A stretch of DNA of 24,155 nucleotides from a virus, in IMG/VR virus record IMGVR_UViG_3300020472_000163, positions 1 to 24,155 of that record; one strand, written 5' to 3'. Made by a program: the position numbers and the translations under genes. The notes under the pieces are model-generated. The model searched no databases, was not told where the DNA came from, and saw only the letters and a program-made list of their open reading frames with translations. Below are positions 1 to 20,029 of this stretch, in pieces. Within the stretch, counting starts at the first letter, position 1, and every line of letters begins with the position of its first letter.

Positions 1-155
1 TGGAAGAAGTACTCGCGGAAAGGGTCGCCATCTTCGGTTGGAACAATGCGAATCGCTTGCTCGCCGTCGTTGGGTCGCCAGAACTTGTTATCGCCGGAAT
101 CTTTATTTTGGAGAGCATCCAGCTTCGCTCTCATTTTTGACAGGTCAATTGCCAT
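1..155 (-). CDS. gp32-like single-stranded DNA-binding protein (N-terminal part, truncated by window edge)
   Basis: Only the first 51 codons are present; the gene runs off the left edge. The start is ATG at 155-153, preceded by AAGGA at 170-166. The product begins MAIDLSKMRAKLDALQ and continues with a FWRPNDGEQAIRIVP segment around residues 25-39. This layout of a short charged helix, a W-R-P turn and a strand with R-I-V-P is what I know from the N-termini of T4 gp32-type ssDNA-binding proteins in T4-related phages. Such proteins coat ssDNA at the replication fork and during recombination. The zinc-binding core lies outside the window, so it cannot be checked. The gene is the last of the minus-strand series but has its own promoter and a hairpin leader, unlike its upstream neighbours. 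Family assignment is by recall of the N-terminal pattern only. Confidence 0.72.
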   Translation of the reverse strand, partial: MAIDLSKMRAKLDALQNKDSGDNKFWRPNDGEQAIRIVPTEDGDPFREYFF

Positions 156-248: not shown

Positions 249-512
249 TTATTTTGAACTTTCTTCAAAGGGGCTATCCACTTCGATCTCTGTCACGTCG
301 CCGTCTGCTGTTTTCCAATTAAACATGCGGAAGGCATTCGTGTCCAAATCCCATACCAGTTCCATTCCCTCTGCGAGAGTGGACTTGCGACCGGTTCCCT
401 TGATCTGAGAAGTGATAAACTTCTCGGGAATGTCAGTCATACGGACAAAGCGCATGGTGCGCGTGTCTCCGTTCTTCTTAATAAATTTACCGTTATATGC
501 TTTCATCAGCAT
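249..512 (-). CDS. small conserved-type phage protein, function unknown (87 aa)
   Basis: The start ATG (512-510) overlaps the TAA stop of the tubulin-like gene as TAATG, and GGAG lies 5 nt upstream, so translation is probably coupled. A second ATG two codons on (product MKAYNGKF) is an alternative start. The 87-residue product is basic at its N-terminal half and acidic at its end. It has alternating strands such as MRFVRMTDIP, and an ELVWDLDTNAFRMFNW stretch at about residues 50-66 that suggests a small beta-barrel. There is no signal peptide and no membrane segment. I do not recognise the family. The tight coupling suggests it works with, or at the same time as, the tubulin-like protein. It may also be an independent small nucleic-acid or host-modulating protein. 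Confidence 0.75.
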   Translation of the reverse strand: MLMKAYNGKFIKKNGDTRTMRFVRMTDIPEKFITSQIKGTGRKSTLAEGMELVWDLDTNAFRMFNWKTADGDVTEIEVDSPFEESSK

Positions 513-1351
513 TATGTCTCCTGTTGTATCTCTGATGTGTTGGCTATTAAATAGCCATAGTTGTTGTTGTAGTCAGTAGAGTGAATCCGCACCGAAACAA
601 TGGTTTCATCACCTACCATGGATGCGCTACGTTCGCGCAAAGATGTAAATAGCTTGCCGTCTGTTTCAAGCTGTTTTTTATTGATAGCATAAATATAACA
701 CCTTTCGTTGATGGTGTCAAGGGGAAAAAACAACTTTTCTTCATTTTCTTCAATATCCACCACACCGAAGGTTGAAACACGGGCTGTTGCCAGCGAAGTC
801 GCGGGTGTGTTGTAGACGGTCTTAGTGTTCAAGAAAACGTTTGTCATGTGAACCGTGTTGACGATTAATTCATTTAGACGTTCATAATACCCGATAACGG
901 GCACGCTGTCAAGTACTTCTTCTACTTTTTTATTATCGACTAGGTAAATCTTCTCAAAAATGCCAGACCGCGCATACTCCTGCAATACATGATACGCTAC
1001 TCGTTCATGCATTAGTGCCTCTTTACTAAGGAGCGCACGATCTGGTTTGACATAAAGGATATTAATCTTGCAACGCTGGACTTGCTCTAGGATCTTTAAT
1101 GTTGCTGCCGATACTTTGCCGGCGCCACAAACAATAAACAAAACTTCTTCGCCCGCCTTTAGCGGCTTGAAGAAAGCCTTGAGATTTAGTGCATCGCTCT
1201 CATAGGCTTCTGCACTATCCGACTCAGGAATGGGATAACAGTCCTTACCCTTCACCAACCCTACGTCAATCTTAAAAACATTGTATTGTGGATACTGTGC
1301 AAACCCATCTGCGATATTGCAGCCGGCAGCACCCAAACCGATGATATTCAT
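512..1351 (-). CDS. divergent FtsZ/tubulin-fold protein
   Basis: The 279-aa product matches the N-terminal GTPase domain of FtsZ/tubulin in order. Residues 1-13 (MNIIGLGAAGCNI) correspond to the FtsZ strand and first nucleotide loop. Residues 68-90 (GEEVLFIVCGAG, then a helix) correspond to the T4 glycine loop. Residues 97-103 (NILYVKPD) correspond to the FtsZ VVTKPF strand. LVDN at 137-140 matches IPND, and the helix at about 150-175 matches central helix H7. The classical GGGTGTG signature is replaced by GAGKVSAAT. No NxDxxD-like catalytic loop is visible after H7, so GTP hydrolysis is doubtful. The C-terminal part is short (FtsZ is usually 350-400 aa). The start has GAGGTGAG just upstream and lies 8 nt after the 797-aa gene. 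The fold is inferred from colinear motifs, not from a search. A different Rossmann-like nucleotide-binding protein is the main alternative. Confidence 0.6.
   Translation of the reverse strand: MNIIGLGAAGCNIADGFAQYPQYNVFKIDVGLVKGKDCYPIPESDSAEAYESDALNLKAFFKPLKAGEEVLFIVCGAGKVSAATLKILEQVQRCKINILYVKPDRALLSKEALMHERVAYHVLQEYARSGIFEKIYLVDNKKVEEVLDSVPVIGYYERLNELIVNTVHMTNVFLNTKTVYNTPATSLATARVSTFGVVDIEENEEKLFFPLDTINERCYIYAINKKQLETDGKLFTSLRERSASMVGDETIVSVRIHSTDYNNNYGYLIANTSEIQQET
541..557. repeat. 17-bp dyad inside the tubulin-like gene, 28 nt before the next start
   Basis: TGGCTATT and AATAGCCA flank a single central base (549), giving an 8-bp inverted repeat. It lies in the last codons of the tubulin-like gene and just upstream of the 87-aa gene. 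It contains a CTATTTAATAG core resembling the intergenic element before other genes here. It may be coincidence imposed by coding. Confidence 0.35.
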
Positions 1352-1359
1352 TTCTCACC

Positions 1360-3753
1360 TCAACTATATAAAAAGCTTTTCCAGTTACGGACAATGGATT
1401 CGTTAGTAGCGTCTCTTGGCGGCTCTGCGGTCCTGTCGTCGGTGGTCTGGACGTGCTCGCCCACCACCTGATTGAACACAGCCTGCACTCTTGCTGCCAA
1501 CTCGTCTTCGTCGTCGTTATGCTCAATCGTGACTTTCATAGCCTCGATTTGTTCTTCGCTACTGTTGTCGTTGACCTCAAGCACCATGTACAGCCTAATC
1601 GTCGGATTGTCGCCCGTGCCAATGACTCCAACCTTTGTAATCATATTTGGATAATGCCTGTCATCACCCGGTGTGCCCTCTTCGTTCCATGCATGTTGAG
1701 TCAGCGCCTGACGCAACGGAACGCTAAACTCTCTGCTCATCAGAATCGTCTTAACATCTTCGGGTGACATGTTGTCGGGGTAGTCTGGATATGCGAATGC
1801 TGTAGCCTCGACACCATAGTATTCCTGATAGTCTGCTTCTTCGGCTGTAACGTCCCACTCATATGTTTGAAACTCTCCGTCGTTTACTTCTTGACCAAAT
1901 GTGTTGAGGGCGCCGCCGTCCATGTATCCGTCGCGCTTTGCCATGCGAGACAACTCGCCCTTGATTGCATCGTACATGTCGTCAATCTCGTTGACCTTGT
2001 AACAAACGTCTTGGAAAGAATCGGCGTTATAAACGTAGCCGTCCTCGGAGATATATTCGCTATCAAGTTGGATATCCAGAATGATGCCATCGCCGTCACG
2101 ATAGAGGCGTGTGCCCCATGAAGAATCGTCCATGAAGCCCCATTCTCTATCGCGGAATTCATCAGCCCAATATTCCATAATCTTGCGAGCATCTGGAAGC
2201 GAGTTCCATTCGTCAGCGTCCCATCTAACGTGCATAATGGCGTTTACCTGAACGTAGTAGCCTTCGCCGCCGTCGTATACAACCTCGCCTTTGATATCGC
2301 ATGCCTGCATTCGGTAAGACCAGTCGTCTGAAAGCTCGTTGACTCTCGCTTGTTCCGCAGCCATGGTTTGCTCTAGGAAATCCATTTCTGGTAGCGTGTC
2401 TTCTGTGTCTGTATTCTGTCCGACTCTTTCAAGCTCAATGCCTGTCAAGTCGTGGATGAGTCCCTTGATATTATTATCCTCGTAAGATCCACCGTACTTA
2501 ACCCAAAAGGCATCTTCTGGTACGGATGCGATAGTTTGCGCCTGACTCTCCTTAGCCCACGCCGCAACTCTCTTCTGAAAGCCGGGGATCTTGGAACCAT
2601 ACACGCGGGTTTCGGGAATGGCGATCTGGGCGCCCTTTTCGTACTTAGCTTCAGATGTGTCTCGATATACACGGACCTGACGCAGACGGACGCGAGAAAG
2701 CGGAACAAAGCTGGTGGTAAGCCCAACGTGACTGCCGCGCATATCATCGGCAAAAATCTCTTCGCCAGCATTGATCGCGGCTTCAGCGGCTTCAAGATTA
2801 TTCGTCTCTGTGGCTTCAAACAGTTCTTCTGTGCTCACCACGTAGGCGACAGCGCCATGCCCATGAGCCTCTGCGACTGCGCATCTAAATTCTGATTGCA
2901 TGTGTTGTTCGCGTGATGGTGGCGAATGACATGATGTGATTCGCTGGAAATCTGACATGCGGAGAATGTCTACGGGATCGCGTGTAATTATAATACTGTA
3001 TCGGTCGCTGAACAGTTTGTCCATATTCTTCTTAATATAGCCGGCATTGTCCTTCCAAAAGTTTCCGAAGTCTACCGCCATTTCTGCTGCTGTGTTGGCG
3101 CCGTCCATCAGACCGCTGTTGCGGGCAGCGTAGCCGCCGTCCATCAAGCCGGGATTGGGAATATACAGCGACATCTGCTTATGCAGCCGCTCCCACGATT
3201 CCATCTGCTCTGCGTTGAGAGCATCTGCAGCCTCATTGCCAGTGACGTTGCCGGGATGACGGAGAGTGCGATCTGCCTTTTTCTGGATAATGGCAAGCAA
3301 CTCATCCTGTCTGCGTGCGATATCCGCAATCTTTGCAAAGAGCTTGCCGATTTTCATCTGAATCTTCTTCTTTTTCTTCTCTGGGCGTGCGCCAGTGATT
3401 GCAGCCATGATGTCGTCTGCGTTGGACTTCGCTGAAACCTCTCTTTCGGCAGAAACCATGCCTTTTTCCCAATCTACCGTATATCCTTGGTCTTGGAGCG
3501 TTTTGGCAAACTTGCCCATATCGCTTGTTTCATCAAATGCTTGGAAATCGATGATAAGGCGCGTTTTACCTTCAAATAGGTCGTTGAACGCCAAATCCTC
3601 CGGTTCCATATCATCGATGGCATCTTGGATGACCGAATACTCGTCTTCATCGAGTTCTCTGAGCAATCTGCTCTCTGTGTACATCTTTGGCTTTTTAGCC
3701 GGTTTTCTGGCTTCTGTTAAAAACTTGCGCCAGCCATATTCGTCGTATTTCAT
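1360..3753 (-). CDS. large phage protein of unknown function with an S-C-H motif (797 aa)
   Basis: No family is recognised with certainty. From residue 250 a compact conserved-looking block reads YSIIITRDPVDILRMSDF, then ITSCHSPPS with Cys275-His276, then CAVAEAHGHGAVAYVV with Cys291, His297 and His299. The R-D-P-x-D-x-x-x-M-S ... S-C pattern recalls a group of large uncharacterised phage proteins, and the clustered Cys/His residues look like a catalytic or metal site. Residues 125-163 are a lysine-rich helix. Residues 450-797 are very acidic, with several Tyr/Asp-rich strands. The N-terminus (GWRKFLTEAR, residues 7-16) and C-terminus (RNWKSFLYS) each carry a W-x-x-F-L peptide. ATG at 3753 follows AGAGG and an A/T-rich element at 3769-3778. 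It leads the polymerase-side cluster with the tubulin-like gene only 8 nt downstream. It could be a virion enzyme or internal protein. Confidence 0.85.
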   Translation of the reverse strand: MKYDEYGWRKFLTEARKPAKKPKMYTESRLLRELDEDEYSVIQDAIDDMEPEDLAFNDLFEGKTRLIIDFQAFDETSDMGKFAKTLQDQGYTVDWEKGMVSAEREVSAKSNADDIMAAITGARPEKKKKKIQMKIGKLFAKIADIARRQDELLAIIQKKADRTLRHPGNVTGNEAADALNAEQMESWERLHKQMSLYIPNPGLMDGGYAARNSGLMDGANTAAEMAVDFGNFWKDNAGYIKKNMDKLFSDRYSIIITRDPVDILRMSDFQRITSCHSPPSREQHMQSEFRCAVAEAHGHGAVAYVVSTEELFEATETNNLEAAEAAINAGEEIFADDMRGSHVGLTTSFVPLSRVRLRQVRVYRDTSEAKYEKGAQIAIPETRVYGSKIPGFQKRVAAWAKESQAQTIASVPEDAFWVKYGGSYEDNNIKGLIHDLTGIELERVGQNTDTEDTLPEMDFLEQTMAAEQARVNELSDDWSYRMQACDIKGEVVYDGGEGYYVQVNAIMHVRWDADEWNSLPDARKIMEYWADEFRDREWGFMDDSSWGTRLYRDGDGIILDIQLDSEYISEDGYVYNADSFQDVCYKVNEIDDMYDAIKGELSRMAKRDGYMDGGALNTFGQEVNDGEFQTYEWDVTAEEADYQEYYGVEATAFAYPDYPDNMSPEDVKTILMSREFSVPLRQALTQHAWNEEGTPGDDRHYPNMITKVGVIGTGDNPTIRLYMVLEVNDNSSEEQIEAMKVTIEHNDDEDELAARVQAVFNQVVGEHVQTTDDRTAEPPRDATNESIVRNWKSFLYS

Positions 3754-3848: not shown

Positions 3849-5072
3849 TTACTTTTTGAGGATCAAATCCGTCATGTTGCCAAAATCTAGCCCAACTTTA
3901 GTGTTCACCTTGAAGGTACCGAACTCGGTTTGGCTAAAAAGGTTAATAAGTTCTGGTATCATTTTTCGTTCTCCATAGGCAAGGTCGATGACGATTGAAT
4001 CATGAAGTGTGAAAGCGATTCGGCTTCTGTAGTTTCTAAGATGGTTATGGACTTCAATGAGTCTCCGGAGGGTAACATCCACGCAACTAGACTGAATAAT
4101 GTAACTGAGAGAATGATGATGGTCGCTAGGAATGGTCCGTCCGAATCGTGTGGAGACATGTGTGCCGGTCCAATGCGAGCTAATAATTCTCTCTCTTCGG
4201 TACGTTTCTTCCAGTAGTTTTTCCACAGACCCATCATTAATACCTAGTGTGCCGGTGACGTTTTTTCTACCGTATAACCAAGCAAAGATTCTGCGCTTCG
4301 CCTCTTGCCTATCAATGTCACCAAAGATATTCTCTATATTCCACTGATGAATGTCAATGTCGGGCTGTTCTTGCCCTGCCAAAGCCAAAGCCACACGTAG
4401 TTCAGCAGCGTTGTAATCTAGCTCCAAAAACCAGTCATTGTTGGGCTTAACCACCGAACGATACTGCTTATCGAGCGTTAGTATTGGAAAGCTGCCCGGC
4501 ACGTTCGTCAAGCGACCGGTTTTAGTACCCCATATGTTATAACGACAGTGGGATGAATACTTCTGAAGGTTCTTTACAAACTTTCGCGTAGAAGCCTTGT
4601 GGTAGATGGGGCGAATGCCTTCCATGTTGAGGGTCAATTCATTATACCGAATATCATCGAGCGTCACTCTTAGCTGCTTGATGAAGTCATAGTTGTCAGG
4701 CTTCTCATAGCTGTCGAATACGTGTTGCGTGATCTTGTTCTTAACCTCACAATAGTCCAATAGAAATTGGCGGGGTACAAGATCGAAGAAACAATTCTCG
4801 TCCAACGAAACCTTGGCGAACCCGAAGGAGCGATAGTACGCTTTCAGCTTATCCCTCACGCCTTCCCACTGCGTGCGCAAATGCGGCGGACATACTTGAT
4901 CCAATGACATGCCTCCGCAATAAAGCTTGGCATATTCTATATCAGTGTCCTGCAAAAACGTGCTGTAGTCCCATGTCTGCGACAATCCTGTGGGGATGGT
5001 GTCGTGTATGAGTTCACCGTCCACATAGACGCCTACGCAGTCCTTCTTATCATCGAGAGTTTGAAATAGCAA
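3849..5072 (-). CDS. family A DNA polymerase, polymerase domain only
   Basis: All polymerase signatures of the PolI family are visible in 407 aa. TKTGRL is at 183-188. Motif A is LELDYNAAELRV with Asp219, followed by DIH around 239-241. Motif B is RQEAKRRIFAWLYG (255-268), with Lys259, Phe263 at the Pol I Phe762 position, and Tyr267. IQSSCVDVTLRRL is at 326-338. Motif C is LHDSIVID with Asp358. It should extend DNA using Asp219 and Asp358 as the metal-binding pair. There is no 3'-5' or 5'-3' exonuclease domain; the roughly 150 residues before the palm are not exonuclease-like. The only bacterial-type start in the open frame before conserved sequence is TTG at 5072, with AAGG 7 nt upstream. 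The frame is open further, overlapping the 611-aa gene, without a better start. The gene lies 13 nt after the 611-aa gene. Confidence 0.93.
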   Translation of the reverse strand: MLFQTLDDKKDCVGVYVDGELIHDTIPTGLSQTWDYSTFLQDTDIEYAKLYCGGMSLDQVCPPHLRTQWEGVRDKLKAYYRSFGFAKVSLDENCFFDLVPRQFLLDYCEVKNKITQHVFDSYEKPDNYDFIKQLRVTLDDIRYNELTLNMEGIRPIYHKASTRKFVKNLQKYSSHCRYNIWGTKTGRLTNVPGSFPILTLDKQYRSVVKPNNDWFLELDYNAAELRVALALAGQEQPDIDIHQWNIENIFGDIDRQEAKRRIFAWLYGRKNVTGTLGINDGSVEKLLEETYRRERIISSHWTGTHVSTRFGRTIPSDHHHSLSYIIQSSCVDVTLRRLIEVHNHLRNYRSRIAFTLHDSIVIDLAYGERKMIPELINLFSQTEFGTFKVNTKVGLDFGNMTDLILKK

Positions 5073-5085
5073 GAGCTTGCCTTGT

Positions 5086-6921
5086 TTAAATGTAGATAAT
5101 AAATTGTCCGCGACCGGCGGAAGATCGTTCGCGTGCTTCGTGTCGTCTAAATGCTTTTGACTTGTCGAGGACTGTCCTGAACGGGGGATTCCCGCCGGGT
5201 GCTGCCAACCGTCGCGTCTTGTTGTTAATATAATCTAGTGCGCGGTTTCCGTCAAGTGTTTTCTGCAATTCTGCCAATATTTTTACATTTTGATCAAAGA
5301 TCCTCTGGGTCCAATCAACTGCAGCCTCTCTTGCGCGGATCCAAAAATAAAATCGTGCAGCAAAGGTGGCGCCAAGGGTATCGCTGAAGACCTCATATGA
5401 TGATGGAGCCATGCCGGGCTGGGACATGCGGGTGTCTGCCTTGCCTAAGAGCATGGCATGGTTCCGCCTCCGGATGGACGAATAAAGCATATCCTGTGGT
5501 GTCTGTCTGCCGTCAAACTTGATTGGCTCGCGTCGTTTCGTAACTTGAATAATCTCTCCCTTGAACCAAACCTGATCGGCTTGTGTGGGAAAAGCTTGTG
5601 CAAACGAGTTCCACATGCTGCAAAAATAGTTCATCAGAACCTTGAGGTCTGTACTGTCTGCCCTATAATAGCACTTGCGGAACATAATGTCAAGGTTTCT
5701 TGTCTGCCATTTTTTAATTAACTCATCATACCGGTGTGCCATCTTGTAAGCACGGTCCCTCTCGCCGGGGATTGTCTGAACACCGGTAGCCGTGGCGTGC
5801 CACCTATCCCTTCTCCTTGTCAGCTCTGTGATGGGCGTGCCTTTGCCTCTGTGGTCTTTTCCTTCTGCTGCAAAGTCACGAATATATGTGCGCATAGCTG
5901 TGGAATGTACATCTGCTACCAGTCGCCATGGAGCATTGAAATCTATAACAAAGCCGTACTTAGAGGCAAACGCAACAAACAATTCAAAATTGGGGTCATT
6001 CAAATACGACTCTTTCTTCACAACATCATTGCCAAAGTCTTCATCCCACAAATCGATCTGCCACCCACTAATGCTGCGGCTACAGTCGCGGCTCAGGATA
6101 AAGCCTGAACGTGTGATTGGTATTTGTGGCGTGATAACGTCGATAAAGTAGATCATGTTCCTCATAAAATCTTTGAAGGTTAATATCTTTTGGCGGCGAC
6201 CATCCTGCAGTGTCCACTGTTGAAAACTTTCAAATACCTTCTCCATGTGCGCTTGATACTGTGGATGTATGCTCTCCCACGCCTTGTGTACATGAATACC
6301 CCCAGCAATCGGAGCATATTTACCCCCCGGATAGCAGCGCGCCTCTTCTGGGCTTCGATCTCCTGTTGATGTGCGCTCATAAAACTGTACCCATGCCTTT
6401 GTCAGATCTCTGAAAGCCTTTGCGACGAAAGCCGGCGCCTGATGAGTGCCGTTGCCTTCAATCAACGATTGGAAATATGTCTCTGAAATGTAAATAGGGT
6501 TTTGCTTCAAATCGACCTTCCCGTACATCTGTTTTTCGTACCAAAAATCGATCATCGGCAACGGGAGTCGGGGGGCGCCTGATTTGGTGTCTCCTTGTTG
6601 CATGGTGTACCTAGGCGCAAATGATTCCCAGTGAATCCTGCGCAGGAACATGTCGCTTGGCTTGTCAGTGTTGGTTGCACCCCACCATTGGGCGTCTGGG
6701 TTTCCATTTCGCCTTGCCTGCTGTATTTTCAATGCCGGCAGTTGAATGAACTGGTGCAGCGTCGGCTCATGACCGCTGCGATATGGTATGCGGCGGATCC
6801 CTTTTCTCTTGCGAGGATCCTTAGCCTCAAAGATGCCGGGAGGGTCTTCCATAAATTCTACCGCGCCCGTATTAAAGCTCCGCTTTTTCTTCATTGATTT
6901 CTCGTCAGAATCAGATGCCAT
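5086..6921 (-). CDS. unrecognised 611-aa phage protein, probably structural or tail-associated
   Basis: The start is very well supported: ATG at 6921 with a full-consensus AAGGAGGTGA 6 nt upstream. Residues 1-50 are basic and probably disordered. The body (70-560) is rich in Trp, Tyr and Phe. Segments include PLPMIDFWYEKQMYG (120-134), ITRSGFILSRDCSRSISGW (269-287) and YGFVIDFNAPWRLVADVHS (322-340). A Cys-containing helix at 412-438 carries KCYYRADSTDLKVLMNYFC. The last 50 residues are again basic. No signal peptide or membrane segment is seen. I do not recognise a family. The gene follows the baseplate/hub candidate by 32 nt and precedes the polymerase by 13 nt. It may close the tail operon or open the replication group. 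High expected translation favours a structural protein. Confidence 0.85.
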   Translation of the reverse strand: MASDSDEKSMKKKRSFNTGAVEFMEDPPGIFEAKDPRKRKGIRRIPYRSGHEPTLHQFIQLPALKIQQARRNGNPDAQWWGATNTDKPSDMFLRRIHWESFAPRYTMQQGDTKSGAPRLPLPMIDFWYEKQMYGKVDLKQNPIYISETYFQSLIEGNGTHQAPAFVAKAFRDLTKAWVQFYERTSTGDRSPEEARCYPGGKYAPIAGGIHVHKAWESIHPQYQAHMEKVFESFQQWTLQDGRRQKILTFKDFMRNMIYFIDVITPQIPITRSGFILSRDCSRSISGWQIDLWDEDFGNDVVKKESYLNDPNFELFVAFASKYGFVIDFNAPWRLVADVHSTAMRTYIRDFAAEGKDHRGKGTPITELTRRRDRWHATATGVQTIPGERDRAYKMAHRYDELIKKWQTRNLDIMFRKCYYRADSTDLKVLMNYFCSMWNSFAQAFPTQADQVWFKGEIIQVTKRREPIKFDGRQTPQDMLYSSIRRRNHAMLLGKADTRMSQPGMAPSSYEVFSDTLGATFAARFYFWIRAREAAVDWTQRIFDQNVKILAELQKTLDGNRALDYINNKTRRLAAPGGNPPFRTVLDKSKAFRRHEARERSSAGRGQFIIYI

Positions 6922-9614: not shown

Positions 9615-9953
9615 TTAACCTTTCAAGTATTTTAGTACCGTTGTTATTGGAGTCGGGATCTGGATCGTATCCCCCATTTCGATATGACTCTCTGTTGGCT
9701 TCTTATTAAACCACGCAATAACCCACCACATCTGGGAGTCTCCATAATATTTCTGTGCCAATTTCCAATATGCATCTCCCGTCTTCCAGAGATGGGGGAT
9801 CCTCTCAATGGTATCCGCGATCTCTTTCCCTGTGGGATATTTCATGTTAGGCGTGTTGTAATGCCTGATCCCTTTGAGACCTCTTTCCTCAAAGATTTCT
9901 TTATAAAACTCAGTTTGATTCCTCAAAAGGGTTCTGCTGTTATAACGTCCCAT
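9615..9953 (-). CDS. LysM-domain baseplate protein (T4 gp53-like)
   Basis: The 112-aa product has a clear LysM-type fold at about residues 58-103. GDAYWKLAQKYYGD is followed by a helix with WWVIAWFN and then EMGDTIQIPTP, the classic Gly-Asp-x-(I/L)-x-I-P end. LysM-type small proteins of contractile tails (T4 gp53, P2 gpX class) sit in the baseplate at the tube base and hold the hub or wedge together. The N-terminal 40 residues (SRTLLRNQTEFYKEIFEERG) are a basic helix typical of gp53-like proteins. The start ATG at 9953 has AAGGAG 7 nt upstream. It lies between the junction candidate and the hub candidate, which supports a baseplate role rather than peptidoglycan binding. No signal peptide is seen. 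Confidence 0.8.
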   Translation of the reverse strand: MGRYNSRTLLRNQTEFYKEIFEERGLKGIRHYNTPNMKYPTGKEIADTIERIPHLWKTGDAYWKLAQKYYGDSQMWWVIAWFNKKPTESHIEMGDTIQIPTPITTVLKYLKG

Positions 9954-9972
9954 TTCTTGTCTCCTTGATCAT

Positions 9973-10761
9973 TTAATCGTCACCCAAGCCCGGGAATGGA
10001 ATTCCACCGCCGGCGGGATCGTCTGGGTCACCTAAAGGCGGGGCTCCGGTGGCGGAGCTTGCGCCTCCGGATCCGCCGGTGCCTGTATTGTACGGGAAGC
10101 CGGCTTGCTGCCTGCCCATCGCTGCATCGCCGCCCTCTTCGGCTGCGTTCGATACAGACCAACCCATCGCATGAGTATGCAATACGGTAAACTCTGCCGA
10201 CAATGTGAGCTTCAGAGGGTAGAACTCGCCGACGCCGGGATCCACAATACCAGAATCAAAATCTGGCTCAAACGTGAACCCACCAATAAAACCAACCAAG
10301 CCATCAGCAGATGCAGGCGCTCCACCGATGCCGTCAGACATGGCGCTGTGAGCAAAGTTTCCAAACTTAAATTTAAACAGCGGCGAAGAAGCAATCGTTT
10401 GGGCGCCGCCTGCTGCCCCGGCTGCGCCGGCTGCATATGACGGGTATAGCATAGCCATAAGCTTTTCCGCTTTCGCCATATTCAATTTTGCCTCATCGAT
10501 GCTAGCAGCAACCACATCCCACTCCACACTGATCGATCTCGCAGTACCTTGGAATGCGCCGATAGGATCCATTCGACCATACACCGCCTCCGTATTCCAC
10601 TCAGATTTATATTCGTCAGAAAAACTATTGATCATTGCCTTGAACACAACATTCGTGGCGCTGGGGATGTGATAAAAGTCCAGCACCATCTTTTTGTGCT
10701 CAGCCAAATGGGTAGAGCCGTCGTCATATGCGAACGAACCAAAGCCAGATGTATCACTCAT
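9973..10761 (-). CDS. tail-tube/baseplate junction-like structural protein
   Basis: The 262-aa product has a beta-rich body: FYHIPSATNVVFKAMINSF at 30-48, then SEWNTEAVYGRMDPIGAFQG, then a strand ARSISVEWDVVAAS. A helix EAKLNMAKAEKLMAMLYPSY ends near 109. Strands SPLFKFKFGNF and FYPLKLTLSAEFTVLH follow. The pattern of a 'V-x-G-R-x-D-P' turn, a 'R-S-I' strand and a 'K-L-x-x-M-L-Y-P' helix is one I associate with baseplate or tube-initiator proteins of large myophages, but I cannot name the family exactly. The last 45 residues are a Gly/Pro-rich linker. The gene follows the tape measure by 66 nt and precedes the LysM protein, as expected for a tube cap or initiator. AAGGAG lies 11 nt before the ATG. 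Confidence 0.6.
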   Translation of the reverse strand: MSDTSGFGSFAYDDGSTHLAEHKKMVLDFYHIPSATNVVFKAMINSFSDEYKSEWNTEAVYGRMDPIGAFQGTARSISVEWDVVAASIDEAKLNMAKAEKLMAMLYPSYAAGAAGAAGGAQTIASSPLFKFKFGNFAHSAMSDGIGGAPASADGLVGFIGGFTFEPDFDSGIVDPGVGEFYPLKLTLSAEFTVLHTHAMGWSVSNAAEEGGDAAMGRQQAGFPYNTGTGGSGGASSATGAPPLGDPDDPAGGGIPFPGLGDD

Positions 10762-10790
10762 TGTCGGGGGTACTCCTTAAGCATTAAAGC

Positions 10791-10805
10791 ATTACTATAA
10801 CTAGT
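10791..10805 (-). promoter_or_regulatory. ACTAGTTATAGTAAT element before the junction-like gene
   Basis: Minus strand GACTAGTTATAGTAAT is a short dyad (ACTA-GTTA-TAGT) in the 66-nt gap after the tape measure gene. It resembles AACTATTTATAGG at 3769 with one substitution in the core. Confidence 0.3.
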
Positions 10806-10827
10806 CAGGATGGTAAGAAGTTCGATG

Positions 10828-13800
10828 CTAGAAGCCCTTTAGTCCATGCTTACTATCGATTGCTGCATCAACCGCTCTCGCAAATTCATCACCATCAATA
10901 TTGAGAACAATATCTTGACCAGACTTGCCGCCCTTGCCGCCGGCACCCTTACCGCCGCCGATGACCTCTCGGAGAGCTTGCACGAATGCGTCCTTGTCTG
11001 CAGATTTCATGTGCCGCTGGGCTTTGGCATAATCTCTTGCCGCAACAGCCATGCCTTTAACGTTGTCTACGTGTTCTGGCTGTAGATGTATAGCCGAATC
11101 TATAAGACCAACCATCGAGTCTGCGGCAACACTAAATGCCACCGTCTTTGACTCTGGCAGTTTGTGCAGAGCCCAAGCAAGCCACAAGATTCCCCATCCC
11201 AACTCTCTCAGTACCTTCGCAACACCCTTCAGATCCGTAAAGCCGGTAAGCCCTTGGGTCAAAGCTCCGAGAGCCGTAGCATTTTCTGGCGGGATTCGGC
11301 TCAAGGCATCGGCGAATGAAGATAGAGCCTTTCTTAGTGTCTTCAATCCTGTGCTCATAAAGGGCATCGACGCGGCAAAGCCAAGCTTGAGCAAGCCCCA
11401 AGCCAACGTTGGTAGCGCCCAGCCGAGTTGTATGAAGCCCATCGCCAACATGCCGAAACCCTTTGCGTGGGGAAGAATCATTGCCAAGGTTTCACCAAAA
11501 TATCTAAGCGGCAGATTCAGTGCCAACAAAGCGATTGCCATCATAATGCCGCCGAAGAACATCGGAACACCTGCAGCCAACAGCGCCCAGCCAGCCGGCA
11601 TCATCCACGACGCAAATTCATAAAAGTCCTTTCCTAGCTGCGGAAGGTACCCAAGAGTATAGTCTGTGACCCATGGTTGTACGCCTAGCCACAAGTACGC
11701 CAATCCAGCAGCCGTCATGACGGCGCCGAACATAAAAGCGACTCCGCCGATAAGCAGTGCCCAGCCTGCAGGGAGCATTGCCCAGCCGAACGCACGGAAG
11801 TCTTTCCCTAATTCTGGCAAGAACCCTAACTCATAATCTGCCCACGGCTTTACACCCCAATGTAGTACGTGAAGTCCAAGCGCTGCCGCCGTAGCACCGA
11901 GCATAAATGCGCCGCCGCCAATCGCCAGAGACCAGCCAGCGGGAATCAGTGCCCAGCCAAATGCGGCAAGGACAATGGCAAGAGGAATCAGGACATCTAC
12001 ATAATCTTCAAATGCGGATACGCCCTTCGCCAGTAGGAGCAGACCTAAGCCCAAGACTCCAACTGCGAGACCGACCTGCATTGCGCCGGCGAAGACAAAC
12101 TTGCCAGCGATCTCCAGTAAGATACCCAAGACTATAAGACTGCCAACCATCATGAGAATGCCGTCCCACGTTACATCATTAAACTGTTTGACTCCCATGC
12201 CCAAAAGCAGTAAGCCTATGCCCAAAACACCCACAGCCAAGCCAACCTTCCAAGCTGCAGTTTCCATAAACTTTGCAGCAACCTTGAGTAAGACACCCAT
12301 AAGGATAAGACTAACGATCATAAAGCCAATTGCTGGCCAAGTTACATCATTAAACTCTTTGACACCTTTGCCTAAGAATATCAGCCCGAGCCCTAAGACT
12401 CCGACTGCGAGCCCCACTTTCCACGCGCTATCATTAAGAAACTTGGAAACAATCGCAAGACCGATACCGAAAGCGATCAGTGAAACGAGAGCAATCATCA
12501 TTGCGCCGGGCATATCATCCCCAATGAACTGCTTGATCCCTAAGCCCAGCAGATACAAAGCAATGCCAAGCCCCAGCAATGCCCCGATCATCTGAGGCAA
12601 CACCGGTGTCAACAATCCCATAGGTTTTATCGCGAGTGTCAATACCCAAAAGAAGCCCACAATCGCCAGCCCTAGAATTGGCAGACCGACAGAGACAAGA
12701 CCAATAAACGCAGCTAGACCTACCAAGGCTGGCATAATAGCCTTGGGCATCTCTAAGAATGCAAGGACCAATTCTTTAAGTGACCAGATGATCACTGCAA
12801 CAAGAATTATCGGAGCCGCCACAGCGAGAGCTAGTCCCATCAGTGCCATGCCCAACGAGAAAATCGCCGGCAGATATTTGGTTGCAGCTTTACCAATCGC
12901 CTTAATGCCTTTAGCCAGAGCCTTTGATGCTGGCGCACCTGCGGCGGCTGAAGTTGTCTGAGTGTTCTGAGCTATGCTAAGCCAGCCTGTCACTTTAGTC
13001 AGTGCTGCTTTGACCCCCATTTCTGATAACATTTGGGAACTCATTATGCTGCTCCAAGTCCAATTAAGCACTTTCATTTTCTTCAGCAACATGTAGGCAG
13101 CGCCGAGACCGATTAAGGTCGGGATAAGCATGCCGCCCGTCATATCATTCAATGCCAAAAAGCCATCCAACAATCCGTGTACAAAACTCAGGATAGGCTG
13201 GACAGCTACGGCAAACTGCTCAAAGATGCGCTTAAGTTTGTCTTGCGCTGATGTTGCTGCTGCCGCACGTTCTTCTAACTTCTTTTGTGCTTCGGCATTG
13301 TCTTCAACCTTCCGCTGTTGTTTATCATATTCAGCTAGCGTCGTGCCAAAAACCTTATTCGCCTCGGTCATGTCTGAGATACCTGCTGCATTTGCAACAG
13401 CCATCTTTTCAAACTTGTTCATGCTGTCCCAACTCTTGCCAGACAACTGAATAGATTGAATCAGCAATCGGATTCTTTCTTCTTCCGAAGCGTTCAGAAG
13501 ATCCATAGAATTCAGAACGCCGCCGCCTAGGACTGAGTTCAGTTTACCGGCAGCATTCGCGGCTCCTTCAAACGTGTCGAACTGAGTAGTGATACCCAGA
13601 AGAGCTTTCATTTCAATACCAGTAGCCTTAGCTGCTGCGGCAACTTCTTTAAAAACCTTTGTTGCTTCATCGCCATAAGCTGTAAACACGGATGCGTTCG
13701 CTTCAAAGTCTTTCGCGATCTTTCCTGCGCTAACGCCAAGGTCAGCAGCCATTGCAGCAAAATCCTTTTGAACCTTTATCGCTTGCTCTGCGGACATGCC

Positions 13801-14670
13801 AAGAGCTTTATTAAGGATCTCCATGTTCGCCGCTGTTGTCTTGGTGTCAATACCCAGAGCGTTCAACTGTGCCGTCGCTTCGACCAAGTTGCCCTGTGCT
13901 TCCTCGGTCATCTCTGTGAATTGGCTCATTTCCGTATACAGGTCACCGACAGCTTCGCCAGCAACTTCCATGCTCACGTTCCACTCAGCATTATTCTGCA
14001 TGGTGTTCATGATCATGTCGTTGTACTCACCGGTACTGTTGGTAAGCTGGTTGGTCTTGGCAAACTGAGCGTCTGCTGCCCAAACCATTGCCACGGTCGC
14101 CTCTTGTACCTTCATCAGTGACGAACCAAGTATGTTCGCGGCACTAAACTGATCGACCAATGCCTGTCTTGTTCTCTCTAGGTTCTCTTCAAAGTCGCCC
14201 TGAAAGAATCTGCCAATGGTGGTGCCCTTCCACGCTCCACTGACGCCCGTAATCGCCTTGGCAGCTTTCTGAGCGCCGGCGGCTGATGCATCTGCAGCCT
14301 CGTTCTTCTCCCACTCAGCATCGACTTGTTGGAGCGTGCGTTCGTACTCCTCTTGGCTCATCGCGCCGGAGGCTCTATCGCGCTTTGCCTGCTGGCGCTG
14401 AATTTCGAGTCTCTTTTTTTCAGTCTGATATGTATTAGCTGCCCACTGCCCTGCTTCTTTAGCTTTGTCGGCGTTGGCTGTGAGGTGATCGTGCTGTTGT
14501 TGCAAATAGCCTACATGCTGCTGGGCAGCATTTGCGGCAGCAACTTGCGCCTGCGTCATCTTCTGGATCGCAGCGGTAATTTCGGCAACAGTCTTGCCCA
14601 TCGCGGCGAGGCTCGTCGCCATGCCCTTTAGCGCTTTTGGATCTAAACCCTTTGTCGGATCGTCAGACAT
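10828..14670 (-). CDS. tail tape measure protein
   Basis: The 1280-aa product is the longest in the window and lies after the chaperone pair, the canonical tape-measure place. Residues 1-135 are a Gln/Ala-rich helical coiled-coil region. Residues 150-500 are amphipathic helices with many Ala, Met and Glu. From 510 to about 1100 it is extremely hydrophobic, with Trp and Gly at regular positions and an approximately 57-residue repeat. The end is a Gly/Lys linker followed by DIVLNIDGDEFARAVDAAID, a common tape-measure C-terminus. It would span the tail tube lumen, set tube length and probably insert into the host membrane. By the rule of about 0.15 nm per residue the tail would be near 190 nm, roughly twice T4. 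The start MSDDP has AAGGAG 13 nt upstream, a long spacing; no better start is seen. Confidence 0.92.
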   Translation of the reverse strand: MSDDPTKGLDPKALKGMATSLAAMGKTVAEITAAIQKMTQAQVAAANAAQQHVGYLQQQHDHLTANADKAKEAGQWAANTYQTEKKRLEIQRQQAKRDRASGAMSQEEYERTLQQVDAEWEKNEAADASAAGAQKAAKAITGVSGAWKGTTIGRFFQGDFEENLERTRQALVDQFSAANILGSSLMKVQEATVAMVWAADAQFAKTNQLTNSTGEYNDMIMNTMQNNAEWNVSMEVAGEAVGDLYTEMSQFTEMTEEAQGNLVEATAQLNALGIDTKTTAANMEILNKALGMSAEQAIKVQKDFAAMAADLGVSAGKIAKDFEANASVFTAYGDEATKVFKEVAAAAKATGIEMKALLGITTQFDTFEGAANAAGKLNSVLGGGVLNSMDLLNASEEERIRLLIQSIQLSGKSWDSMNKFEKMAVANAAGISDMTEANKVFGTTLAEYDKQQRKVEDNAEAQKKLEERAAAATSAQDKLKRIFEQFAVAVQPILSFVHGLLDGFLALNDMTGGMLIPTLIGLGAAYMLLKKMKVLNWTWSSIMSSQMLSEMGVKAALTKVTGWLSIAQNTQTTSAAAGAPASKALAKGIKAIGKAATKYLPAIFSLGMALMGLALAVAAPIILVAVIIWSLKELVLAFLEMPKAIMPALVGLAAFIGLVSVGLPILGLAIVGFFWVLTLAIKPMGLLTPVLPQMIGALLGLGIALYLLGLGIKQFIGDDMPGAMMIALVSLIAFGIGLAIVSKFLNDSAWKVGLAVGVLGLGLIFLGKGVKEFNDVTWPAIGFMIVSLILMGVLLKVAAKFMETAAWKVGLAVGVLGIGLLLLGMGVKQFNDVTWDGILMMVGSLIVLGILLEIAGKFVFAGAMQVGLAVGVLGLGLLLLAKGVSAFEDYVDVLIPLAIVLAAFGWALIPAGWSLAIGGGAFMLGATAAALGLHVLHWGVKPWADYELGFLPELGKDFRAFGWAMLPAGWALLIGGVAFMFGAVMTAAGLAYLWLGVQPWVTDYTLGYLPQLGKDFYEFASWMMPAGWALLAAGVPMFFGGIMMAIALLALNLPLRYFGETLAMILPHAKGFGMLAMGFIQLGWALPTLAWGLLKLGFAASMPFMSTGLKTLRKALSSFADALSRIPPENATALGALTQGLTGFTDLKGVAKVLRELGWGILWLAWALHKLPESKTVAFSVAADSMVGLIDSAIHLQPEHVDNVKGMAVAARDYAKAQRHMKSADKDAFVQALREVIGGGKGAGGKGGKSGQDIVLNIDGDEFARAVDAAIDSKHGLKGF
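11491..12603 (-). repeat. about 57-residue tandem repeat within the tape measure gene
   Basis: The anchor Gly in G-V/I before an aromatic recurs at residues 711, 769, 826, 883, 939 and 996, with a degenerate copy near 1053. The spacing is 56-58 residues (about 171 bp). Two adjacent copies share WKVGLAVGVLG and FNDVTW almost exactly, at 750-778 and 807-835. Each unit is a long hydrophobic helix pair separated by an aromatic turn. Confidence 0.8.
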
Positions 14671-14700
14671 ACTTCAATATGATCTCCTTGGAGCAGCGAC

Positions 14701-15033
14701 CTATTTAAATGGCCAAACAATGCCTGTGCTACGCTCAAACTTTTTTACTGCACCACGCAGCGCATATTTGCTACGATACGTGCGCGGATCATCAAGTCCA
14801 TATTTTACATAGTCTTTATAGTATCTTTTTTCACCGGCTAACGTACGAGCAAAGTCTTTAACCTGCCTCTTGTTTCCGCGTACCTTCATGGGTATATCTG
14901 CACCACCAAACATGCGCTGCATGATCATCTTAATACCCGTTCCGAACATCGACAAGAAGCTCTCGTTCATTTCGCCTCTTTCGGCTGCAGTTAAATCAAT
15001 AACGATGGGGGCTAAATCACCTTGCTCTTCCAT
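14701..15033 (-). CDS. small basic phage protein between chaperones and tape measure (110 aa)
   Basis: The ATG at 15033 (product MEEQGDLAPIVID) has GGAGG 7 nt upstream and is preferred. The frame opens earlier at a TTG (15066), but that adds only 11 residues containing the ribosome binding site itself. The product has an acidic N-terminus, then a Met-rich helix FLSMFGTGIKMIMQRMFGG. A very basic, Tyr-rich second half follows, with VRGNKRQVKDFARTLAGEKR and YKDYVKYGLDDPRTYRSK, ending GIVWPFK. The C-terminal half looks like a helical nucleic-acid or protein binding surface. I do not recognise a named family, though the pattern feels typical of large marine myophages. It starts a new transcript after the terminator at 15082-15118 and ends 30 nt before the tape measure gene. 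That suggests a tail-assembly or tape-measure partner role. Confidence 0.75.
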   Translation of the reverse strand: MEEQGDLAPIVIDLTAAERGEMNESFLSMFGTGIKMIMQRMFGGADIPMKVRGNKRQVKDFARTLAGEKRYYKDYVKYGLDDPRTYRSKYALRGAVKKFERSTGIVWPFK

Positions 15034-15067
15034 GGACGGTCCTCCGATTAAACACAATAGTCTCAAC

Positions 15068-15078
15068 AGTAAATAGTT
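15068..15078 (-). promoter_or_regulatory. AACTATTTACT element before the 110-aa gene
   Basis: Minus strand CAACTATTTACTG lies between the terminator at 15082-15118 and the 110-aa gene, 34 nt before its ATG. A promoter is expected here because the upstream transcript should end at that terminator. Confidence 0.35.
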
Positions 15079-15081
15079 GAT

Positions 15082-15118
15082 TAAAAAAGAAAAAGGACCG
15101 GGTTTTAAGCCCGGTCCT
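15082..15118 (-). terminator. strong rho-independent terminator after the chaperone genes
   Basis: GGACCGGG (15095-15102) and CCCGGTCC (15110-15117) form a perfect 8-bp GC-rich stem with a 7-nt loop, and A15094/T15118 can extend it. On the minus strand it is followed by TTTTTCTTTTTT. It lies 18 nt past the stop of the chaperone extension. Confidence 0.9.
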
Positions 15119-15135
15119 AGGAAAAAGCAGCCCAG

Positions 15136-15438
15136 CTACGGTTTCCGTACGCTAGGCATGCTAGGTCTGCTCATAGAAGGCATGCTGGAGGAACCCTTTT
15201 GATTGGATTTCTTCATCTGTTCTGCTTCATCTTTAAACTGCTTCTGCAGGCGTTCCATGAACCAATGGCGTAGTTTTACTGGGAGGTTATATGCCTCGAT
15301 GAAACTCCATCCACCATGATACTTGAGCAGGAAAAAACACTCATACACTTGTGACATGTACTCATGACTTAGGCCAAAAAAAGTCCGCTGTAAACGGAAC
15401 CTCCATTTCTTGAGAATATCCACACTCAACGCACTCAA
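15136..15438 (-). CDS. tail assembly chaperone extension (T part of G/GT), probably made by frameshift
   Basis: This frame overlaps the end of the 302-aa gene by 77 nt and runs 79 codons past the T7 run. It has no convincing start of its own. The only early candidates are TTG codons near 15438 buried in the upstream gene and an ATG lacking any ribosome binding site. The unique part has a helix YMSQVYECFFLLKYHGGW, then SFIEAYNLPVKLRHWFMERL and a Lys/Gln-rich helix, ending in a Ser/Met/Pro tail. The E-x-x-x-L-P-x-x-x-R-x-W-F motif is what I know from second ORFs of tail-chaperone pairs. Fused to the first 298 codons of the upstream frame it gives a protein of about 377 aa. Its place between tube and tape measure is that of G/GT proteins, which load the tape measure during tail assembly. 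Confidence 0.7.
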   Translation of the reverse strand: MSALSVDILKKWRFRLQRTFFGLSHEYMSQVYECFFLLKYHGGWSFIEAYNLPVKLRHWFMERLQKQFKDEAEQMKKSNQKGSSSMPSMSRPSMPSVRKP

Positions 15439-16270
15439 AGTGTTGTCTGAGATCGTGGTTTGGCATCAGCGCCTGATACGCTGTTCTTAGAAACCGAGAA
15501 TCGGCTGCTGGCATTGCGTTTACAAAGCCGTGTACGTGCTGCATTAGGGAGCTACCATTAACAGCCGTGATATATGTTCGCATCTGATCGGTCATCTGCG
15601 TGTCGTGACCAAGAAGGTTGGTTCTTGTCGTCTTAGCGTTGGCTTTTCTCATGCTATCGGCAAGTGCGGTCTCGTCGCGACCATTCATCAAACGAACAGT
15701 GACAGTAACCTCGGACTTGGGCAAGACAATATTAAACGTGTTGTCCTCGTTCCTTGTTACTGCATCGCTGTACTCTTCGGCGGCGAAGTACTCTGTGTCG
15801 AAGCCAGTTGAGACTCCTTCCGACAAGCTAAACTCGTACTCCTGTGCTGTGGCACATGCGGGGCACGTTGTCTTTGTCTTATACTCCTCGCCGTAACCAG
15901 AAATACGTGCTGAAACAAGAATAGCATTCTTGTCGCCGGTTAAAAGGTCATCGACCTTAACACGCTTGTCAACAATAATGTTCTGCAAGAACCTATTGAT
16001 GGCTACCCCCTTCTTCAAGAGAGCGCGTGATGTAAGAATGTCTTCATCCTTGGCAGTCATGTACTTAATCTCGATGGTTTCAGCACCGCAAAGTGGGTGC
16101 CCCTCGGGATAGTACCTTCCTGCCGTGGGGAGTTCGACAAACTCGGTTGGGACTACAAAATTTAATTGTCCCGCTGATTGTTGAGTAGGCTGTGTAGCCT
16201 GTTGAGTTGCGGCTGATGCATCGGGGTTTTCCCGTGCGCCAGTACGCTCGTCGTTATTACGACCTGACAT
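15362..16270 (-). CDS. T4 baseplate-type protein / tail assembly chaperone (G-like)
   Basis: The 302-aa product starts with a Gln/Thr-rich disordered stretch (1-35). It continues with PTEFVELPTAGRYYPEGHPL (41-60) and EIKYMTAKDEDILTSRALLK (67-86), the opening pattern of the T4 baseplate protein family (T4 gp26 relatives, Pfam T4_baseplate). Two CxxC pairs, Cys136/Cys139 and Cys280/Cys283, could bind one zinc ion. The protein would act in the cytoplasm during tail or baseplate assembly. In its place between the tube and tape-measure genes it is the counterpart of the G tail chaperone. The start ATG at 16270 has GGAGG 5 nt upstream. Its last codons contain the T7 slip site. Family assignment is by recall; the exact role (hub subunit or chaperone) is uncertain. 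Confidence 0.82.
   Translation of the reverse strand: MSGRNNDERTGARENPDASAATQQATQPTQQSAGQLNFVVPTEFVELPTAGRYYPEGHPLCGAETIEIKYMTAKDEDILTSRALLKKGVAINRFLQNIIVDKRVKVDDLLTGDKNAILVSARISGYGEEYKTKTTCPACATAQEYEFSLSEGVSTGFDTEYFAAEEYSDAVTRNEDNTFNIVLPKSEVTVTVRLMNGRDETALADSMRKANAKTTRTNLLGHDTQMTDQMRTYITAVNGSSLMQHVHGFVNAMPAADSRFLRTAYQALMPNHDLRQHFECVECGYSQEMEVPFTADFFWPKS
15376..15382 (-). other. T7 slippery run, candidate programmed +1 or -2 frameshift site
   Basis: In frame 0 the minus strand reads GAC TTT TTT TGG CCT AAG TCA TGA. The extension frame reads GGC CTA AGT from 15375, one base forward. A +1 slip (skip one T) or a -2 slip (re-read two) joins the two; a -1 slip hits TAA at once. No other homopolymer of this length is present in the 77-nt overlap. 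Confidence 0.65.
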
Positions 16271-16335
16271 TAATCCTCCAATGTGGTATTAGTATACAAT
16301 ACTTAGTCAGTTTATTAAAATGTTTTTGTCATCTT

Positions 16336-16926
16336 TTAAGGTGCGGTTGAGCGAGTCGTGCTTCTCCAGCCTGCGCCGCCTGCAGCGTCACCAGCGTCTG
16401 GTCCACCAAGCTCTGCCCAATCGTAACGAACCTTAACAGTAATCTCTACGATATCATCAGACTCATAATCAAGATCACCGAATGTGACTTCCTTGATCCA
16501 TGCGTTCTTGAGATACCATGTCTCGATTGCTGTAACGTCTTCGTTACCATCGCCACCAGCAATCTGCTGGATAGTAAGTCCACCAAGAGCAGCTACTGCC
16601 GACTCTTTCGTGATGGTTTGAGCAGCATGTGCTGCGGTGTCAGGAAGCTTATAGCCTGACATGTCGATGATCTTCAAAATGTTGTGTGCTGCATCCGGAG
16701 TAACAGGATCAACAAGTGTGAATTCGACTTCATTGTACTCTACTCGTCCCGGGTAATAGAATGAGTGGTTGATATAGCTATGCTTCACCTCCGATACTGT
16801 GAAAGTGGGCTTAGTTACCTTCTTAATGATCCAAGCTGGGATCTCGCCAACCTCCGAACTGATGCTGAGTAGCCACCTAAATTTTCTTTTAGGCTCGGTT
16901 GTGCTCACGCTCCAAAAATCTGCCAT
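16336..16926 (-). CDS. tail tube protein
   Basis: The 196-aa product directly follows the sheath gene. It starts with KRKFRWLLSISSEVGEIPAW, the strand pair that begins T4 gp19-like tube proteins, and contains TVSEVKHSYINHSFYYPGR (42-60). Strands such as VEYNEVEFTLVDP and DIVEITVKVRYDWAEL complete the tube beta-barrel. It polymerises as stacked hexamer rings around the tape measure and forms the DNA channel inside the sheath. T4 gp19 is 163 aa; the extra length is a loop near 95-125 and a short disordered C-terminus. The ATG at 16926 has GGAGG 9 nt upstream. A terminator-like hairpin separates it from the sheath gene, so sheath and tube may be made in different amounts. Confidence 0.93.
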   Translation of the reverse strand: MADFWSVSTTEPKRKFRWLLSISSEVGEIPAWIIKKVTKPTFTVSEVKHSYINHSFYYPGRVEYNEVEFTLVDPVTPDAAHNILKIIDMSGYKLPDTAAHAAQTITKESAVAALGGLTIQQIAGGDGNEDVTAIETWYLKNAWIKEVTFGDLDYESDDIVEITVKVRYDWAELGGPDAGDAAGGAGWRSTTRSTAP

Positions 16927-16978
16927 TTGTTAAATCCTCCGAATGATTCTTCGTAAACCTTATAGGTTTCTTTTTCTT

Positions 16979-16993
16979 CTATAATAAGTAGTA
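16979..16993 (-). promoter_or_regulatory. TACTACTTATTATAG element before the tube gene
   Basis: Minus strand TTACTACTTATTATAGAAG follows the hairpin at 16993-17021 and precedes the tube ATG by about 52 nt. It matches the CTATTTATTA-type elements loosely and could restart transcription for the abundant tube protein. Confidence 0.3.
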
Positions 16994-17021
16994 AAACGGT
17001 CAGGAAAAGCCCGACCGTTTT
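16993..17021 (-). terminator. hairpin terminator after the sheath gene
   Basis: AAAACGGTC (16993-17001) and GACCGTTTT (17013-17021) form a perfect 9-bp stem starting 6 nt after the sheath stop, with GG/CC extending into the loop. The T tract is the TTTT of the stem followed by ACTACTT, so termination may be partial and readthrough to the tube gene is likely. Confidence 0.65.
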
Positions 17022-17026
17022 CCATT

Positions 17027-20000: not shown

Positions 20001-20029
20001 GAAACGAACTTAAACTTAGTTACTGACAT
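17027..20029 (-). CDS. tail sheath protein
   Basis: The 1000-aa product has both conserved ends of contractile sheath proteins. The N-terminus is FVSPGVFVNEIDNSQLPRP (8-26), followed by GPVIIGRTQRGPAMRPTRIT. The C-terminal domain from about residue 776 includes RVWVPPSVVALGAMSY, PAEGIVIFGQKTLQ, NVRRLMIFVKREISR and LMDFKIILDETTTTPDLIDR. It forms the outer contractile sheath driving the tube into the host. T4 gp18 is 659 aa, so about 340 residues are extra, mainly between 100 and 750. That region is Gly/Ser/Asn-rich, with surface-domain features such as LYLRASASQGGLSDARN. AGGAG lies 9 nt before the ATG. The first codons overlap the end of a small possible ORF. Confidence 0.96.
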   Translation of the reverse strand: MSVTKFKFVSPGVFVNEIDNSQLPRPSDPIGPVIIGRTQRGPAMRPTRITSFSDFIEVFGSPVGGRQGDDVWRDGNNVGPTYAAYAAQAWLRNTNACTIVRLVGEQHEDASSSGYAGWSNGTVGTDGGAYGLFIANSGSGATSNKGALAAVFYLKNGELALKGTAAGSTLDDVTVSGSNVMIESNGTYCGFTAQVMTGSTVRHETAFNFDRSSAKYIRNVFNTNPMLTNATITAQGAGNDPSWHYWLGETYDRHLVEQCGQQATGYTGEAGSADISDGDSGQYYGFVAPLKLSSYTPGVMTMAAKEAKSGWVFGQDLTTNTSAYDPVNMQKLFRFVTLSPGEWEQKNLKIAIQNIKVSSNDYDKYGTFDVIIRKADDLDNAVAIVERFSGCNLNPFSTNFIGRKIGDRRLVWSDTEKRYREYGEHPNMSKFVRVELDNAVEIGTADQLLLPFGFYGPPRFLGFSINSGSVAAAVATDGGVTMVANPGNDFGNTYQNVFGKDGGAGEPGSDLGNGDPDVAGGWAGGVSSGSVLVHVSGALTEIGFTGSYTYPRLYLRASASQGGLSDARNAYWGVDSTREDSDILFEDSWSDTVGALPYGINSYNAASSADTEVSFYFTLDDIKSTNSGQAMHTTYLSGSRIAGNSLSAASSSYKGPLDAGANRFVLPLYGGFEGVDIKQSEPFNNVSLASNAAETTNYAYYTIKKAIDMVADPEVVDMDLLAAPGITHTGLTNHMINTAEDRGDCLAIIDIANAYTPKTESTKSAENRGANVTTAVSNMRTRGLNSSYGACYFPWVQISDPQTAQRVWVPPSVVALGAMSYGQRSQELWFAPAGFTRGGLSEGRGGLPVIAVSERLTAKERDDLYEANINPIAQFPAEGIVIFGQKTLQVTQSALDRINVRRLMIFVKREISRMAATLLFDQNVKSTWLKFTSKVSPFLGSVKARLGLMDFKIILDETTTTPDLIDRNIMYAKIFLKPAKAIEYIAIDFVITDSGAAFED

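Follow-up and report, generated by a model that had tools for sequence, protein, structure and literature searches.

A divergent family of phage proteins with a predicted tubulin/FtsZ fold, encoded in a replication module, lacks both GTPase signatures

We describe a family of phage proteins with a predicted tubulin fold in which two sequence hallmarks of the tubulin/FtsZ superfamily, GGGTG[S/T]G and NxDxxD, are missing. We take the family to be a divergent viral offshoot of this superfamily whose gene belongs to the core of the replication module. The member analysed here is encoded on the minus strand at positions 512–1351 of the window, by which we mean the whole stretch of DNA under study, a 24,155-base virus record. 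The ORF begins with an ATG and comprises 279 codons plus the stop, and the protein was assigned by ORF calling, AlphaFold2 modelling, and Foldseek comparison. Genes for the tail sheath, tail tube, baseplate, and tape-measure proteins at 9615–20029 indicate a phage with a contractile tail, and the carriers of the family are a large group of uncultured bacterial viruses. The 24,155-base record contains no tRNA genes. It also encodes a repetitive, fibre-like protein of 1006 residues (20228–23248, minus strand) without a PHROG match.

Sequence searches with the 279-residue protein by phmmer and hmmscan against Pfam, PHROGs, and the PDB gave no significant match, and neither did a profile search of the PDB. 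The window protein is without a match to the Pfam Tubulin domain (PF00091), for which the best relative reached 13 bits, over the T1 loop only, at a cut-off of 33. Searching 50,697 phage records (INPHARED) by tblastn with the window protein or two divergent relatives returned no match. Canonical FtsZ matches in the phage collection proved to be ordinary FtsZ, unrelated to the window family, in records that are mostly unannotated or contaminated-looking. In IMG/VR, on the other hand, we found 24 close relatives, and a profile search retrieved at least 588 relatives; the conservation counts given below refer to 184 distinct full-length members and the synteny counts to 191 distinct tubulin genes. 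The sole cellular match, in a WOR-3 metagenome-assembled genome (L115:7505-12864, CP070664.1), was discarded as a cellular homologue: on this contig, replication genes of the phage, including a shortened UvsX, span about 5 kb with cellular genes on both sides, which probably reflects a chimera or a decayed insert. A dN/dS ratio of about 0.07–0.13 between the window gene and four relatives indicates that the gene is under purifying selection. Among the open-licence papers searched, we found none on this family.

An AlphaFold model from the single sequence was unusable (pLDDT 43) and was replaced by an AlphaFold2 run on an alignment of 83 homologues with 33–91% identity to the window protein, which resulted in a pLDDT of 93.2 and a pTM of 0.92. 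The model displays the two-domain tubulin fold with the central helix H7 and the second α/β domain. Foldseek placed TubZ from Bacillus cereus (4ei7_B, E 2.6e-12) at the top of the PDB matches, and 50 of 50 among the matches listed were TubZ, FtsZ, or tubulin (E 1e-10 to 1e-12), aligned over the whole chain and both domains with query TM-scores of 0.65–0.73. The top matches in BFVD were viral proteins annotated as FtsZ or cell-division protein (E 5.4e-13 and 1.6e-9). A tubulin/FtsZ fold had been proposed in a sequence-only reading of this DNA, and the confident model and the whole-chain matches, a test set in advance, bear it out. We regard the predicted fold as near certain and the question as settled as far as prediction goes.

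The segments on which that proposal was based are all present in the ORF, including LYVKPD (residues 99–104), LVDN (residues 137–140), and an H7-like helix that corresponds to residues 155–174 of the model. Profile comparison (hhalign) of the family with an FtsZ alignment recovered 10 columns at T1 (P 0.012), which is not significant and lies at the detection limit. When forced to a full path, hhalign gave a colinear alignment in which LVDN lies opposite IPN(D) and YYERLNEL opposite AFKMGNMV; N140 then faces the Asn of IPND, and Y156 and N160 face the Phe and Asn of FtsZ helix H7. Seen from a single sequence, such likeness could be due to chance, given the absence of any phmmer or hmmscan match and a P of 0.012 at T1. 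However, because the 83-homologue model is confident and Foldseek ranks TubZ first, we conclude that the tubulin-like segments are not a chance resemblance. Another Rossmann-type protein, for example a dinucleotide-binding one, would account for the GxGxxG at residues 5–10, the aspartate ending the second strand, and the weak matches to TrkA_N that five of 14 members show (E 0.0097 at best), but it would leave unexplained why the listed PDB matches are exclusively of the tubulin superfamily and cover both domains. No better match to a Rossmann family was seen, as the first enzymes of this type in the BFVD ranking have E ~1e-3, with TMq values of ~0.3, and we consider this identity extremely improbable.

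The T1 loop (residues 5–12, GLGAAGCN; 1316–1339, minus strand) is well kept, with G5, G7, and G10 identical in 184/184 members. Residues 70–84 read VLFIVCGAGKVSAAT, and within them residues 76–83 (GAGKVSAA; 1103–1126, minus strand) take the T4 position in place of GGGTG[ST]G. None of the 184 members has the canonical motif; the family form is G-[SA]-G-x-[IV]-S-[GAC], in which S81 is kept in 159/184. At the T7/H8 position (residues 175–190; 782–829, minus strand), NxDxxD occurs in 0/184 and the model has no H8 helix. This stretch is among the most variable (mean entropy of 2.58 vs. 1.92 overall). The loss of the GTPase signatures, earlier noticed for the window protein, thus extends to all 184 relatives, among which no intermediate with intact loops was found. 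Position 188 is acidic in 123/184 relatives, and both 185 and 188 are acidic in 65/184; the window protein has neither acid. Because 123 members keep an acid at 188, residual hydrolysis is possible outside the clade of the window.

In tubulin and FtsZ structures, guanine is contacted by the T6 asparagine and, where H7 begins, by an aromatic residue and an asparagine spaced four residues apart. The residues likely to make these contacts are retained in the family as N140 of LVDN (932–934, minus strand; Asn in 177/184) and the top of the core helix H7 (residues 155–174; 830–889, minus strand), which is helical in the AlphaFold2 model: Y155 is kept in 169/184, position 156 is Tyr, His, or Phe in 161/184, and N160 is kept in 178/184. 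Since these contacts are kept, guanine specificity can fairly be inferred, although T1 also reads as GxGxxG and, by its sequence, could serve another nucleotide. A mask of the nucleotide face, set from tubulin anatomy, scored higher in conservation than all 277 of its circular shifts, making this region the most conserved.

Equally conserved, by a mask drawn after seeing the data, are the lower ends of H5 (QEYARSG) and H7 (HMxN) and the start of S7 (RxxTxG). The end of H5 (residues 124–130; 962–982, minus strand) is the most conserved run of the family, with a mean entropy of 0.50 and with Q124 in 184/184, R128 in 184/184, and S129 in 183/184. At the bottom of H7 (H168, M169, and N171), H168 is kept in 169/184 and N171 in 173/184, and at the start of S7 (residues 191–196, RVSTFG; 764–781, minus strand), R191, T194, and G196 are kept in 161/184, 177/184, and 164/184, respectively. 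Q124, R128, S129, H168, N171, and R191 are among the most conserved residues, and the topology puts them on the lower face, where H5, H7, and S7 have their lower ends. They might replace the T7 acids and complete the pocket of the neighbouring subunit in trans, and the protein would then be an active filament former with relocated catalysis; the acids at both 185 and 188 in 65 members would also be in keeping with this. The conservation may, however, be structural, the patch was placed from topology and not from coordinates, and we know of no tubulin that works in this way, which together make relocated catalysis unlikely.

Our preferred reading, to which we assign a probability of roughly 45%, is that of a tubulin-fold protein that binds a guanine nucleotide without canonical hydrolysis and supports phage replication, or organises DNA, in the form of a static oligomer or scaffold. 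The window protein would bind GTP or GDP in the retained T1/T4/T6/H7 pocket. Canonical GTP hydrolysis would be lost because the T7/H8 half-site, normally contributed by the neighbouring subunit, is gone. As the hydrolysis half-site is missing, assembly, whether head to tail or otherwise, would be expected to yield stable oligomers or short static filaments and no dynamic spindle. Such static assemblies may organise the phage replication machinery or newly made phage DNA. The kept nucleotide face and the lost T7 half-site fit two suggestions of the sequence-only reading, nucleotide binding without hydrolysis and static filaments. Canonical protofilaments may nevertheless be impossible, because the bottom face (T7, H8, and H9) is remodelled.

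The flanking replication genes are fixed wherever they could be tested. On the minus strand of the window, the order is PolA, a 797-residue protein, the tubulin, an 87-residue protein, and the start of a single-stranded DNA-binding protein (SSB). Among the 191 distinct tubulin genes, all 127 loci with sufficient flanking sequence have a gene for a family A DNA polymerase upstream in the same orientation, and all 119 testable loci have a gp32-like SSB gene downstream. An independent search starting from PolA yielded 80 loci, of which 78 have the tubulin gene, and the other two contigs end just past PolA. The order in the relatives is baseplate protein, unknown protein, PolA, tubulin, an optional small gene, SSB, UvsX/RecA, 5'-3' exonuclease, DnaB helicase, and RNR, and each of twelve large records (113–204 kb) carries one copy of the tubulin family. 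The tubulin-fold gene is a fixed part of the phage replication module. The sequence-only reading had placed it merely near replication genes; the association is stronger than claimed, with the replication operon found in every testable locus. This position suggests a role in replication, short of proof.

The window PolA is short, with 407 residues (3849–5072, minus strand; PF00476, E 2.3e-13; phrog_17, E 9.1e-21). In the relatives it has 394–407 residues, and its N-terminal ~170 residues are without assignment, with no recognised 3'-5' exonuclease domain. The 797-residue protein between PolA and the tubulin (1360–3753, minus strand) has no significant family match and belongs to a cluster of 15 loci; this insert is confined to the subclade of the window. 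Directly upstream of PolA is a 611-residue protein (5086–6921, minus strand) that belongs to a cluster of 89 predicted genes with conserved synteny and matches neither Pfam nor PHROGs. The SSB (3–155, minus strand) is represented by its N-terminus, cut by the window edge, in which 49 of 51 residues are identical to L004:9197-9967, a match to gp32 (PF08804, E 2.4e-15). The 87-residue protein (249–512, minus strand) shows a weak WYL_2 or Sm-like resemblance (PF10902, E 8e-4, below the cut-off; phrog_1086, E 1.4e-4). Its coupling to the tubulin, which had been suggested from the sequence, is real in the window, where the two genes overlap by one base at the tubulin stop codon (TAATG), but it is not general: a small gene of this kind follows the tubulin in 63 of 160 testable relatives, which rules it out as an obligate partner.

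The operon also bears on a possible action against the host. If the protein were a mimic arresting host division by capping FtsZ or assembling together with it, it would be expected to keep its upper face and lose its lower half-site, as a one-sided cap, which is what the family displays. As the main role, however, we consider division arrest quite unlikely, as the gene is always placed between PolA and SSB wherever the locus could be tested, whereas host-takeover genes are usually variable and scattered, and the sequence similarity to FtsZ is almost nil.

The strongest rival to a static scaffold is a monomeric or dimeric accessory factor of the replisome, in which the fold would serve as a nucleotide sensor or a purely structural module in contact with PolA or SSB, without ever forming polymers. 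It is consistent with the strict adjacency to both genes and with the altered T7, H8, and H9, much of the canonical lower interface, in the model. A related lineage with a remote PolA provides a further argument, as there the tubulin slot is filled by an RNase_T (DEDD) exonuclease; genes of similar length occupy the PolA-SSB slot at L404:5295-6134, L405:4371-5228, and L407:5068-5907. Three of four records of this sister lineage contain a recognisable RNase_T exonuclease, whereas the lineage of the window yielded none in 11 large records, although the records may be incomplete. On the other side, the conserved bottom ends of H5, H7, and S7, delineated with a partly post hoc mask, hint that a contact surface has been preserved at this end too, and not just at the top. 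We regard the accessory factor as rather doubtful. In a possible, but not probable, form of the nucleotide-bound scaffold, a GTP-binding, non-hydrolysing tubulin would be a standing part of the replisome and would scaffold or gate SSB and the DNA polymerase, encoded where related phages have a DEDD exonuclease of the proofreading type.

Some of the related phages carry a second tubulin with intact loops. In one large relative (record G075), it has 364 residues with the loops GGGGGTGS and FDSKD and is encoded in a structural-gene region (L304:4390-5481, minus strand). Its family comprises at least 107 IMG/VR loci (relatives L306–L385) and is absent from the phage record collection searched. Sequence comparison detects it against FtsZ, CetZ, and TubZ (alignment A5, E 3e-8); it can therefore be used as a control, since the sequence searches that miss the window protein do see a phage tubulin of the ordinary kind. 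Profile-profile comparison of the two families was colinear but not significant (P 0.09). Both tubulins occur together in five of 16 large records chosen for the second tubulin and in one of 18 chosen for the window family; given the latter figure, the window family seems not to need the second tubulin.

The known phage tubulins, PhuZ and TubZ, are dynamic GTPases that move DNA. Here, a tubulin fold is held under strong selection without the parts for hydrolysis and is obligate in a replication operon, in a widespread family (>580 IMG/VR loci) that went unmatched when the GenBank phage collection was searched and that forms a tubulin branch invisible to Pfam and PHROGs. This makes testable the idea that tubulins can be non-dynamic, nucleotide-bound scaffolds in viral replication, and the relatives with a second, intact tubulin offer a natural test of division of labour.

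Among known systems, FtsZ resembles the window protein with TMq values of up to 0.73 (EcFtsZ, 6ll6) and with T1, T4, T5, T6, and H7 colinear. The window protein differs in lacking both signatures and, in the model, the H8 helix, and in being phage-encoded, and the sequence relation reaches only P 0.012. FtsZl1 and FtsZl2 are likewise divergent branches of the tubulin superfamily detected by remote homology; both keep GGGTG(S/T)G, and FtsZl1 has no recognisable T6-H7 (Makarova and Koonin, 2010; PMC2875224). In the window family, T6-H7 is the well-kept part and GGGTG(S/T)G has been lost. The second phage tubulin shares some phage genomes with the window family but retains the intact GGGTGS and FDxxD that are absent here. 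TubZ of Bacillus plasmids and Clostridium phage c-st is the best structural match in the PDB and, like the window protein, resides on mobile or viral DNA. Unlike TubZ, the window family has no GGGTG[ST]G, T7 acids, or C-terminal helix and tail: the last strand of the model ends at residue 272 of 279, and as the chain stops about seven residues later, a tail of the PhuZ or TubZ type is lacking. Nor did we find other marks of a TubZRC system, neither iteron- or centromere-like repeats near the tubulin gene nor a recognisable tubR-type gene among its immediate neighbours (PolA, the optional small gene, and SSB). PhuZ, or phiKZ TubZ, of the nucleus-forming jumbo phages is also a tubulin fold from large contractile-tailed phages. 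Both PhuZ and TubZ possess a C-terminal tail and retain what is needed for catalysis (PMC3678025), and in PhuZ the T7 aspartate is catalytic and the tail is required for polymerisation (PMC3678025; PMC4244570). The window family, in contrast, lacks the T7 aspartate and the tail, is shorter, and lies in a replication operon; the C-terminal helix H11 and acidic tail of PhuZ are missing from the model. By analogy, the nearest experimental precedent for the static filaments suggested here would be PhuZ D190A, in which the catalytic T7 aspartate is removed: GTP is still needed for polymerisation, and the filaments are stable and non-dynamic (PMC4244570).
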